A stretch of 64,000 nt of DNA, taken from Chloroflexota bacterium. GTDB taxonomy: Bacteria > Chloroflexota > Dormibacteria > Dormibacterales > Dormibacteraceae. The notes under the pieces were generated by a model. It did not search any database, was not told where the DNA came from, and saw nothing but the letters and a program-made list of their open reading frames with translations. The DNA lies in the NCBI GenBank assembly GCA_005880915.1, contig VBIW01000045.1:1-64000 (forward strand), in the 5' to 3' direction. The position numbers and the translations under genes were made by a program. Every line of letters begins with the position of its first letter. Position 1 is the stretch's first letter. Shown one piece after another: positions 52,783-56,809 of this stretch.

Positions 52783-52829
52783 AGCCCCTCCGTCGGCTGC
52801 GCCGACACCTCCCCATGAATGGGGAGGAG
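52783..52829. repeat. Dispersed palindromic repeat, family A, upstream of DUF559 gene
   Basis: AGCCCCTCCGTCGGCTGCGC then CGACACCTCCCCATGAATGG GGAGG: the same element as at 54596-54641, in the opposite orientation to the 57-bp array. Together they bracket the DUF559 gene. Confidence 0.88.
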
Positions 52830-53542: not shown

Positions 53543-54037
53543 ATGAGCGAGCTGAAGGTCAAAGCACCAGCGCCGAGTCAGGACCAGGTCTCGGCCTGGA
53601 TCAACCTGCGCCAGGCCGGCCACGTGATCCAGAACCGGCTGGAAGAGCGGCTACAAAAGGAAGCCGACCTCTCCTGGGCCGAGTTCGAGCTCCTCATGCG
53701 ACTCCGGGTCTCGGCCGCCCACCCGCTCCAGATGAGCGAGATCGCGGCTCAGCTGGTCGGCAGCCCCAGCGGCACGACCCGAATCGCGGACCGCCTGGTA
53801 CGCGACGGCCTGATCGTCCGGGAGACGCCTCGCGAGAATCGGCGGATCGTTCGCGTCCAGCTCACCGACCGCGGCCGCGAGGTGCTGAGCAAGGCGGACG
53901 AGGTCATCAAGACCAACGTGCAGGAGGTCCTGGGCGACCACCTCACCGAGACCGAGGTGACCGAGCTGCGCGCCCTGCTCCGCAAGCTGCTCGAAAGCAA
54001 CGGGGCCTGGCAGGACGCGCGCTGCGCCCCGCTCTAG
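53543..54037 (+). CDS. MarR-family transcriptional regulator
   Basis: A 164-residue protein from ATG 53543; the frame open upstream overlaps the LUD gene and is rejected. A MarR winged helix is seen: LSWAEFELLMRLRVSAAHPL, QMSEIAAQLVGSPSGTTRIA recognition helix, RLVRDGLIVRETPRENRRIV wing. It probably represses itself and the LUD gene through the adjacent palindrome, relieved by a small-molecule ligand. Its stop overlaps the convergent dihydrofolate-reductase-like gene. Confidence 0.9.
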   Translation: MSELKVKAPAPSQDQVSAWINLRQAGHVIQNRLEERLQKEADLSWAEFELLMRLRVSAAHPLQMSEIAAQLVGSPSGTTRIADRLVRDGLIVRETPRENRRIVRVQLTDRGREVLSKADEVIKTNVQEVLGDHLTETEVTELRALLRKLLESNGAWQDARCAPL

Positions 54038-54594
54038 GCTCTCCGGCGGTAGTGGAGGTGCACGGCGCCACCACGAAAACGGCGCTCCTCAACCAGCTCG
54101 AGCTCGAGGTGGACATCATCCGGTAGGGCGCGGTTGCCCCCTCCCACCACTACGGGATAGACGATGAAGTGGTACTCGTCGACCAGCCCGGCCCTCATCG
54201 CCTCCGCGGCCAGGTGCGGCCCGCCGACTGTCATGTCGCGACTCGCCGCGGCCTTCATCCGCCTCGCCGCCTCCGGGTCGAACTCTCGCTCGATCCGCGT
54301 TCTCGCGGTGGACGCCTTCTCCAGCTTCTTCGAATAAACGATCTTGTCGGCGCCGGCCCAGATGGCCGCGAAGTCCTGGATGACGGGCGGCTGGTCGGCC
54401 AGCTCAGGCGGCTTCTCCCAATACGCGAGCACCTCGTACATGCGACGGCCGAGCAGGTAGGTGCCGACCGGCCTTTCAAGGTCGTTGACGAAGGCATGCA
54501 CCTCCTCATCGGGCATGGCCCAGTCGAAGTTGCCCTCCTGGTCCGCGACGTAGCCGTCGAGCGACATGATGGGCGCATAGATCAGATTTGCCAC
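54034..54594 (-). CDS. Dihydrofolate reductase family (RibD C-terminal-like) protein
   Basis: A 186-residue protein from GTG 54594. Markers: LIYAPIMSLDGYVADQEGNF, a YLLGRRMYEVLAYW, DMTVGGPHLAAEAMRAGLVD, and YPVVVGGGNRAL. The fold is that of DHFR / RibD reductase; these stand-alone actinobacterial-type proteins have unknown substrates. A family A repeat sits immediately before the start, and reading through it would add nine residues (MSAQPTEGL). Confidence 0.85.
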   Translation of the reverse strand: MANLIYAPIMSLDGYVADQEGNFDWAMPDEEVHAFVNDLERPVGTYLLGRRMYEVLAYWEKPPELADQPPVIQDFAAIWAGADKIVYSKKLEKASTARTRIEREFDPEAARRMKAAASRDMTVGGPHLAAEAMRAGLVDEYHFIVYPVVVGGGNRALPDDVHLELELVEERRFRGGAVHLHYRRRA

Positions 54595-54595
54595 C

Positions 54596-54641
54596 AGCCC
54601 CTCCGTCGGCTGCGCCGACACCTCCCCATAAATGGGGAGGA
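54596..54641. repeat. Dispersed palindromic repeat, family A, abutting a start codon
   Basis: AGCCCCTCCGTCGGCTGCGC, CGACACC and CCTCCCCATAAATGGGGAGG. It ends two bases from the GTG of the DHFR-like gene and lies between it and the GrdB-like gene. Confidence 0.88.
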
Positions 54642-54646
54642 GCTGG

Positions 54647-55507
54647 CTAGCCTTGCGATTGGCGCGCCTCTAGCATCTTTCTCACGATCGGGCTCGGCAC
54701 CTTCGGCTGCCACGCGCGGTAGGCCTCGCGCAGGGGCACCGGCCACTCGACGTCGAGGTCGACGCGCGTGCCAAACACCGGTGCTCCGGCCAGCACCCGC
54801 AGCGCGAGCTCGAGCGTGCGCCTCTGCATGGCCTTGTTGAGCGGCATCCCAAATGCGTGGCCGAAAGGAAACTCCACGCCGACGACGCGCGGCGCCCGGC
54901 GCTCCTCAGCGACCGCGGGCATCATCGTCACGACCACGGTCGGAATTCCCGCCGCCTCGATGCACCGTGCCAGCACGGGCACGTTCGAGCAGCAGTCGGG
55001 TCAAGCCGGCGCGAGGATGAGCGCGTCGGCGCCCTGCTCGCGCAGGTGCGCGGCGACCTGCGGCGCGGTCGCAGCACGCCAGTCGGAAAGCCCGAGGTCC
55101 TGGTATCCCATCACCGCGACGTGGTTCGCCACCGCGCCACCGACAACACCTTCGCGCGCGAGGTCGGCCAGCGAATGCATCGGCAAAGCGATCTCTGGAT
55201 CGGCCAGCACGTCCTCGTCATTTATATGTAGGTGCGCAACGCCGATGTCCGAAGCCGCCGTGGCCGAAGGAATCGAGCGCCACGTCGGGTCGCCCCAATC
55301 CGGCTGCGCCTGCTCGCGATCGAGGTCGAACGGCTGCTGGCTCCCCTTCAAATAAAGGCCGGCTGAAGTGAGCAGCGCGATGCGCGCGTCCGAAAGCCGC
55401 TTCTCGAACGGCGCCCACACGGGCGCCTCTTCGCCGGGAAACGCGCCGCGCCCCTCATATAAAGGACGGAAGCTTCGCGGCAGGAACTTGTAGCTGTCGA
55501 CGACCAC
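54647..55507 (-). CDS. GrdB-family selenoprotein candidate with in-frame UGA (Sec169)
   Basis: One 286-residue gene from GTG 55507, if TGA at 55003-55001 is read as selenocysteine. The N-terminal part (VDSYKFLPRSFRPLYEGRG, ARIALLTSAGLYLKGSQQPF, VAHLHINDEDVLADPEIALP, DALILAPA) and the C-terminal part (CIEAAGIPTVVVTMMPAV, RVVGVEFPFGHAFGMPLN) both match the glycine/betaine/sarcosine/D-proline reductase selenoprotein B-type family and are in the same frame. The site reads U-P-D-C-C, where homologues have U or C in a U/C-P-x-C motif. A SECIS-like hairpin follows. Family reductases use the Sec to attack C-N or similar bonds; substrate here is unknown. No sel genes in this window. Confidence 0.82.
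54966..54983 (-). promoter_or_regulatory. SECIS-like hairpin downstream of the UGA
   Basis: On the minus strand CGTGCC pairs with GGCACG around a 6-base loop CGTGCT. It starts 18 bases after the UGA, and a G is second in the loop, 25 bases from the UGA, matching the usual bacterial SECIS layout (loop 16-37 bases downstream with an early G). Confidence 0.7.
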
Positions 55508-55603: not shown

Positions 55604-55927
55604 ATGGTCAAATTGACCGTTCTGTACGACCAGCCCGAAGATCCAGCCGCGTTCGAGAAGTACTACTGGGAGACTCATGTCCCAGACCACGGGCAAATGA
55701 TTCCGAACGTGATCAAGCTCGAGGCCAACAAGGCTGTGGGCGAAAACCCGCCCTTCTATCGCTCGGCCGACCTCTACTTCGAGAACATGGCGTCTCTTCA
55801 AGCGGCGCTCGAACATCCGGTCGGCCAGGCCGCCGTCGCCGACCTGGACACCTTCGCGAAGGACCGCTACAAGGTCTTGATCACCGAGATCCAGCCTGTG
55901 AAGTCCCTCGCCACCGCTAAGGCGTAG
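55604..55927 (+). CDS. EthD family small protein
   Basis: A 107-residue protein with AGGAGGTGACG before ATG 55604. The sequence KLTVLYDQPEDPAAFEKYYW, then ETHVPDHGQMIPNVIKLEAN and a Phe/Leu-rich second half (SLQAALEHPVGQAAVADL) match the EthD / stress-responsive alpha-beta-barrel-like fold. Some members help degrade ethers; most are unassigned. Confidence 0.88.
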   Translation: MVKLTVLYDQPEDPAAFEKYYWETHVPDHGQMIPNVIKLEANKAVGENPPFYRSADLYFENMASLQAALEHPVGQAAVADLDTFAKDRYKVLITEIQPVKSLATAKA

Positions 55928-55930
55928 CGC

Positions 55931-56809
55931 CTAGAGCAGCTCGCCTTTCAGCACCGGCATCACCGAGCCGCCGACCTCGATGCGGCTCGGGATGTCGGGC
56001 GACTCGCCGTACTCCAGCTCGATGTGGATGAAGCTCTGCCGCCCCATCTTTGTGCCCTGCTCGCTGACGATCGACACCTTCGGCGCGCGCTCGACCAGCC
56101 CGTACTTCACCGCGTAACCGCCCAGCGGACCGCTGGCGGATCCAGTTGCGGGGTCTTCGGGAATGTCGGGCGCAAACATTCGGCTGTACAGGCGATGAGA
56201 GCCGACCCGCGCGAAAAGAAAGAGCCCATGCGCGTGGTCGCGAAGCAGGTTCTGCAGCCGCGCCTGGTCGGAGACCGCCGAGTCGACGGCGCGCTCATCA
56301 CGCAGCGCTGCGAACAAGAACGGATTGCCTGTGTTCGCGATCTGGGCCGGAGCGTCGGATACAAAAGCCGAGTCGTCAACGCCGATCGCGGACGCGACAT
56401 GTGCGTGGGGGAAGACCTCACCGAAGGTCATCTGTGGGTGTGTCATCCAGAACATGACCCGGCCGTTTTGCTTGACACCGCGCACGCTCACCGGACCGAC
56501 GCCCTCCTCCAGGACGAATTCGAGCGCGCCATCCGGCACCAGCCCTTCGTCGGCGAGGACCCACGCGGTGCCGACGGTCGGATGGCCCGCGAACTTCAAC
56601 TCGCTGAACGGCGTGAAGATGCGCACCTTCGCCGCATGGGCAGGATTCTCGGCCGGCAGGACGAACGTCGTCTCCGAGAAGTTCATCTCACGCGCGATGC
56701 GCTGCATCTCTTCGGTCCGGAGATCACGACCGTCGAGCACCACCGCGAGCTGGTTGCCCGCAAGCGGCTTCTCGGTAAAAACATCGACGATCCGCAAGGT
56801 CCTCCCCAT
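55931..56809 (-). CDS. PhzF family isomerase/epimerase
   Basis: A 292-residue protein with two similar hotdog-like halves. PhzF elements: RIVDVFTEKPLAGNQLAVVL, the acid-base Glu in REMNFSETTFVLP, FAGHPTVGTAWVL, and later DPATGSASGPLGGYAVKYG. It may isomerise small phenazine- or amino-acid-type metabolites. The ATG (56809-56807) falls on the CCTCCCCAT arm of a family A repeat, so the first residues MGR are repeat-derived; TTG four codons later is an alternative. Confidence 0.9.
   Translation of the reverse strand: MGRTLRIVDVFTEKPLAGNQLAVVLDGRDLRTEEMQRIAREMNFSETTFVLPAENPAHAAKVRIFTPFSELKFAGHPTVGTAWVLADEGLVPDGALEFVLEEGVGPVSVRGVKQNGRVMFWMTHPQMTFGEVFPHAHVASAIGVDDSAFVSDAPAQIANTGNPFLFAALRDERAVDSAVSDQARLQNLLRDHAHGLFLFARVGSHRLYSRMFAPDIPEDPATGSASGPLGGYAVKYGLVERAPKVSIVSEQGTKMGRQSFIHIELEYGESPDIPSRIEVGGSVMPVLKGELL

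Follow-up and report, generated by a model that had tools for sequence, protein, structure and literature searches.

The minus-strand interval 55507-54647 of the 64,000-nucleotide stretch of Chloroflexota DNA analyzed here (hereafter, the window) is, with high confidence, a single selenoprotein gene whose in-frame UGA is decoded as selenocysteine (Sec). Judged by comparison with its relatives, Sec decoding is near certain, and decoding in vivo is what we infer from it. At this comparative level, the continuity of the gene, the Sec column, a downstream hairpin, the Sec machinery and the missing partner family can all be regarded as established. When the TGA is taken as a residue, the interval yields one frame of 286 residues with a single internal TGA, which runs from a GTG start at 55507, aligned with GTG, ATG or TTG codons at 15 same-family loci, to a TAG stop at 54649-54647. 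The original prediction, made from the window sequence, had described two minus-strand frames in the same phase, parted only by the TGA at 55003-55001 and with conserved-looking protein on both sides. The frame is indeed continuous, and both sides of the TGA are conserved in 22/22 full-length same-order orthologues. The UGA codon (55001-55003, minus strand) encodes residue 169, the first residue of a U-P-D-C-C motif (54989-55003, minus strand); as had been noted, P-D-C-C follows the TGA directly in the window. The motif contains Sec169 and Cys172, arranged as UxxC, and Cys173, and both cysteines are invariant in an alignment of 71 sequences. Standard ORF calling splits the gene, as had been anticipated for automatic gene callers, into two ORFs at 55507-55001 and 54982-54647 (168 and 111 residues). 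Because only two fragments are returned, a whole redox enzyme of this kind could go unseen in metagenome-assembled genomes (MAGs) such as this one.

The distribution of the gene within its order is patchy, since 18 of the 42 order genomes gave no match in a search at E ≤1e-20 and the other 24 did. Twenty-two of the matching genomes carry a full-length orthologue, with TGA in the Sec column in all 22; of the remaining two, one (G024) has a TGA paralogue and the other (G020) a disrupted copy. This disrupted orthologue (L047:703-1009) has lost the part that carries the Sec site, with only residues 1-48 and 232-283 still recognisable. A scan of named genomes, queried with the stretch downstream of the Sec codon, returned 75 relatives, all of them covering the column: 74 have TGA, one has TAG and none has Cys. 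When Cys was placed in the Sec column of the search pattern, the same scan found no relatives. The 75 named relatives belong to Chloroflexota, to Actinomycetota and to single MAGs labelled Acidobacteria, Alphaproteobacteria and Bacillota; several contigs are common to these loci and to the order search, so that the two counts are not independent. Across the phylum, matches at E ≤1e-12 came from 93 of the 400 genomes sampled. Twenty distant homologues were chosen from these matches and read, 16 of them having been picked for the lack of a listed stop; within this chosen set, 18 have Cys in the column (CPLCH type) and two have TGA. The question raised beforehand, whether Sec or Cys occupies column 169, was therefore answered by TGA, TAG or Cys in all homologues read, and the members found of the U-P-D-C-C clade appear, from their sequences, to use Sec codons only. 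One of the two distant homologues with TGA (L082:1021-1692) has a second in-frame TGA and reads U-P-I-U; its two Sec residues could possibly form a diselenide pair.

Downstream of the UGA lies a SECIS-type hairpin (54966-54983, minus strand; stem CGUGCC/GGCACG, loop CGUGCU). Its 6-bp stem is formed by 54983-54978 and 54971-54966, with the loop at 54977-54972, and it begins at the 18th base past the UGA; this position and the G at the second place of the loop agree with the original description, and its SECIS-type character is borne out by conservation. Among 74 distinct clade sequences, all six pairs are kept in 73 and GU is found at loop positions 2-3 in 74. Taken alone, the window hairpin is not clearly beyond chance, as a fold at least as good was obtained with 20 of 300 synonymous recodings, whereas across the relatives it is. 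The synonymous codons across the hairpin are frozen. In 25 orthologues (the 22 of the order plus L048-L050), codons +6 to +10 read AAC GTG CCC GTG CTG, each in 25/25, and codon +11 is restricted to GCA and GCG, which can both pair. The mean codon entropy in these orthologues was 0.33 for the seven helix codons versus 1.08 for 77 other conserved positions, and none of 20,000 amino-acid-matched draws was as low as the helix codons. Seventeen distinct TGA paralogues have a different, 7-bp stem, with the loop six bases closer to the UGA; all pairs are present in 12 of them, at most one break occurs in 15, GU is kept in 16, and at least one pair is broken in five. In the Cys homologues, a stem at either of the two places tested was found in none of 16 distinct sequences. 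The synonymous-recoding control was run on 15 sequences in total. For four other clade members the outcome was modest (29, 4, 26 and 1 of 300 recodings as good). Five of six paralogues gave a strong result (0 to 6 of 300), the sixth, L062, having no good hairpin by this measure (111/300), and the four Cys homologues were unremarkable (41 to 300 of 300). A search of Rfam in E-value mode with 181 bases around the hairpin gave eight matches, all under their gathering scores.

The MAG to which the window belongs, as contig C171, has 4.13 Mb in 228 contigs and is 96.03% complete and 8.59% contaminated. All four components that the original prediction had proposed to look for are present in it: tRNA-Sec with anticodon UCA (72.4 bits, cut-off 47), selA (497.2 bits, cut-off 267.9) and the adjoining selB (334.2 bits, cut-off 242.25) on contig C48, and selD (337.5 bits, cut-off 125). 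Given the contamination and the number of contigs, some of the sel genes, which lie on contigs other than that of the window, might come from another organism. The selD gene is itself a selenoprotein gene, with Sec at GAG-U-ACK (L021:1501-2412, contig C220). The same MAG carries a second PrdB-like selenoprotein gene, 36% identical (L012:8279-8971, contig C214, plus strand), with a U-T-T-C motif and the other, paralogue type of hairpin. Within the order, selA scores over the cut-off in 36/42 genomes; it was not found over the cut-off in G005 (95% complete) and G007 (80%), though both have the orthologue. Altogether, the machinery, the occupancy of the column by TGA, TAG or Cys and the conserved hairpin support the prediction of a 286-residue selenoprotein in which UGA would stand for Sec.

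Two explanations would leave no Sec in the protein. If the UGA were a real stop, the interval would hold a disrupted gene or two independent ones, much as ORF calling lists it, and one relative, L047, is truly disrupted, its first frame not running into the second. Nevertheless, the frame past the UGA is conserved in 22/22 full-length orthologues, the UGA column varies solely to TAG among the clade members read, and a frozen codon together with a hairpin is unexpected of a decaying gene; on the conservation of downstream frame, column and hairpin, we discarded this explanation as highly improbable. A sequencing or assembly error over a true Cys or Trp codon could also be imagined, since TGA lies one base from the Cys codons and the window comes from a MAG, but the identical TGA in 74/75 named loci, drawn from many record sets, and in 22/22 order orthologues puts it practically out of the question.

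The selenoprotein reading has a further, natural test in a swap from UGA to UAG at the same column. The lone TAG among the 75 named relatives belongs to Geodermatophilus chilensis (L185; genome G418), whose tRNA-Sec (65.1 bits) has the anticodon CUA and is named tRNA-Pyl by ARAGORN. The U-P-D-C-C copy of this species matches only from residue 139, its 5' part being missing. Homologues were found in 7 of 112 genomes of the G. chilensis family. TAG occupies the Sec column in seven genes from five genomes (G418, G447, G449, G459 and G522), with a hairpin after each, and TGA occupies it in two MAGs of the same family, G419 and G420. Anticodons of tRNA-Sec were read in three genomes (G000, G418 and G420); G420, with its TGA gene, has tRNA-Sec(UCA). 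In G419 no tRNA-Sec over the cut-off was found. One PrdB-like gene of this family (L202, from G522) has both an internal TAG and an internal TGA, the TAG being at the Sec column. Sec-UAG selenoproteins of Geodermatophilaceae were reportedly described by Mukai in 2016.

Regarding the family, the best profile for the window protein is TIGR04483 (PrdB), matched over residues 28-254 with 132.8 bits versus a cut-off of 300, which is thus missed. The same profile is matched by 71/71 members of the full-length alignment (E ≤0.001), the comparison of score with cut-off referring to the window protein only. None of the GrdB-type profiles, at 33.8 to 41.9 bits, reached its cut-off; among them, TIGR01917 (GrdB) reached 40.1 bits versus 602.2 and was matched at profile positions 219-420 of 431, short of both cut-off and full length. 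PF07355 (GRDB superfamily) just passed its gathering cut-off (23.5 versus 22 bits, residues 35-166). The GrdB-family label originally given to the gene is therefore better refined to PrdB-like (132.8 versus 40.1 bits). PrdA and GrdE form the pyruvoyl group. Their family, PF09338, was found in 0/42 same-order genomes; as it was found in 9/400 genomes of the phylum, the search is able to detect it. With cut-offs missed and the partner not found, we did not classify the protein as a true PrdB or GrdB and regard it as a variant of the PrdB type that lacks a partner like PrdA.

A tree of 46 proteins was built. Besides the window protein it took in 45 selected loci: 19 clade members, 12 of the 17 paralogues, 8 of the 18 Cys forms, 5 of the 7 TAG genes and one GrdB-type. 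With the root at the midpoint, the U-P-D-C-C proteins group together as a single clade (support 96/99), and the Cys forms are placed among the Sec paralogues. A Sec form, L083 (U-P-L-C), is nested within the Cys clade, so the exchange between Sec and Cys may have gone back and forth. The AlphaFold2 model obtained with the 71-sequence alignment (mean pLDDT 94.5, pTM 0.93) places residue 169 between a strand (162-166) and a helix (170-185). Foldseek against the PDB with this model gave no match at E ≤0.001, and the one match that a sequence search of solved structures returned, a designed protein, was poor (E 0.023). A suspected kinship with the Asp/Glu racemase fold was not seen among the 50 Foldseek matches listed.

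The gene neighbourhood was compared at 15 of the 22 order loci, which are the 15 same-family loci mentioned above. In the window, a PhzF-family isomerase-like gene (55931-56809, minus strand; TIGR00654, 190.7 bits, cut-off 76.2) is separated from the selenoprotein gene by a divergent EthD-family gene (55604-55927, plus strand; TIGR02118, 71.8 bits, cut-off 30.5), and a RibD_C (DHFR-like) gene lies downstream (54034-54621, minus strand; PF01872, 66.6 bits, cut-off 24.1). The original prediction had named the EthD gene upstream and the DHFR-like gene downstream and had seen no hint of a substrate in them. This stands for these two genes, yet the neighbourhood of the relatives leads to PhzF, which is found upstream on the same strand in 15/15 same-family loci, with -4 to +10 nt between its stop and the start of the selenoprotein gene in 14 of the 15. 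Only one of these loci, L084, matches the window, with EthD between the two genes (gap 1603) and RibD_C downstream; for this reason, EthD and RibD_C were rejected as functional clues. On the other side, a gene for MsrB lies downstream on the opposite strand, within ~3.2 kb (centre to centre), in 15/15 loci, often parted from the selenoprotein gene by others, as by DUF559, LUD, MarR and RibD_C genes in the window. PhzF was not found near L098 and L099, the two more distant clade members whose upstream side was covered; the sequence of L102 starts inside the gene. Among the 22 largest clusters listed for the distant named loci, none with PhzF is common to them; one cluster of 11 loci does span distant members, and by eye it resembles a CoA-transferase. 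As its orientation and distance vary, it was not counted as a conserved neighbour. The window also contains a repeat, CCGACGGAGGGGCT, exact at 52783-52796 and 54596-54609 and weaker at five other places. Against 1.75 expected, seven places were counted (≤2 mismatches), a total reached by 1 of 100 shuffles; one copy sits a short way past the 3' end of the selenoprotein gene.

PhzF has the same fold as proline racemase and DapF. By analogy, PhzF and the selenoprotein could couple a racemase-like step to a reductive one, in the manner of D-proline reduction. We lean slightly against counting on a functional link between the two proteins. The spacing of PhzF does offer a tangible starting point for finding the substrate.

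What the enzyme does could be read in other ways. A genuine PrdB or GrdB at work in a Stickland-type fermentation would fit the ranking of the profiles, PrdB first and GrdB-type next, and the UxxC motif, which a 2026 review lists for both D-proline reductase and GrdB (PMC13188914). However, the NCBIfam cut-offs are missed by both models, the GrdB model is matched only in part, and PF09338 is missing from the order although the search works elsewhere in the phylum, so we hold this to be very unlikely. A peroxidase- or disulfide-reductase-like antioxidant selenoprotein, as opposed to a reductase cleaving C-N or C-X bonds, is less far-fetched. Several families of selenoproteins use UxxC as a thiol-redox motif (PMC1088965), and MsrB is near in 15/15 same-family loci. 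But MsrB is on the opposite strand and frequently behind other genes, and it may be close by simply because gene order is conserved in the lineage, since PhzF and LysE are conserved along with it. Furthermore, no thioredoxin-fold match was found, Thioredoxin_9 reaching only E 0.029 and 14.7 bits versus a cut-off of 25, and we consider an antioxidant role unlikely.

We favor instead a PrdB-like reductase working in the following way. SelB and tRNA-Sec(UCA) would decode the UGA at 55003-55001, directed by the downstream hairpin. Sec169 would then act as nucleophile or reductant and attack a small substrate, Cys172 of the UxxC motif would resolve it as a selenenyl sulfide, and a thiol donor would recycle Sec169; the closely spaced PhzF-family isomerase would probably supply or remove the substrate in this lineage. 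The redox cycle of Sec169, Cys172 and thiol donor seems to us likely, and that the enzyme is a stand-alone reductase is a somewhat weaker preference. The pyruvoyl-based activation of D-proline and glycine reductases is probably not used, since a PrdA/GrdE-type partner was not found in the order. It is tempting to speculate, though we would sooner doubt it than rely on it, that a PrdA-independent PrdB-type selenoreductase and a PhzF-fold isomerase make up a two-gene pathway in Chloroflexota, with a clade that reaches Actinomycetota and whose UGA has been re-coded to UAG in Geodermatophilus. If true, such a pathway would be the counterpart of proline racemase plus D-proline reductase for a new substrate. 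In any case, a clade found with Sec only, for which neither a PrdA/GrdE-type partner in its order nor a solved relative was found, hints at selenium-dependent chemistry outside Stickland fermentation.

Compared with known systems, the protein resembles PrdB (TIGR04483) in the single Sec of a UxxC motif, in a similar length (the model has 238 positions) and in the existence of Cys homologues. It differs from PrdB in the extra invariant Cys of U-P-D-C-C, in extra residues flanking the matched stretch at both ends, in its score below the cut-off, in the PF09338 partner not being found in the order and in the PhzF neighbour of its relatives. With GrdB, GrdF and GrdH (PF07355) it shares UxxC, and it is weakly homologous to their models in the C-terminal half; in contrast, it has 286 residues versus 431-435 in those models, lies far under the NCBIfam cut-offs and has no GrdE partner found. 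Other substrates, such as monofluoroacetate, have been suggested for selenoproteins resembling GrdB (PMC10838667), and the stem "chloroflex" is absent from the main text of the 2026 review (PMC13188914). The marine PrdB selenoproteins are also alike, by description only: two papers report 42 Sec UxxC proteins called PrdB by homology in the Sargasso Sea set (PMC1088965) and 235 Sec and 110 Cys forms of PrdB in the GOS data (PMC2398784). Finally, Sec-UAG with tRNA-Sec(CUA) is known in Geodermatophilaceae from the Secmarker paper of 2017 (PMC5330540), whose main text does not contain "PrdB" or "proline reductase". The likeness with that system lies in the CUA tRNA-Sec and in the UAG at the Sec site; the difference lies in the proteins, which in the main text of that paper are formate dehydrogenase, a UGSC protein and AhpC, whereas here they are PrdB-like.
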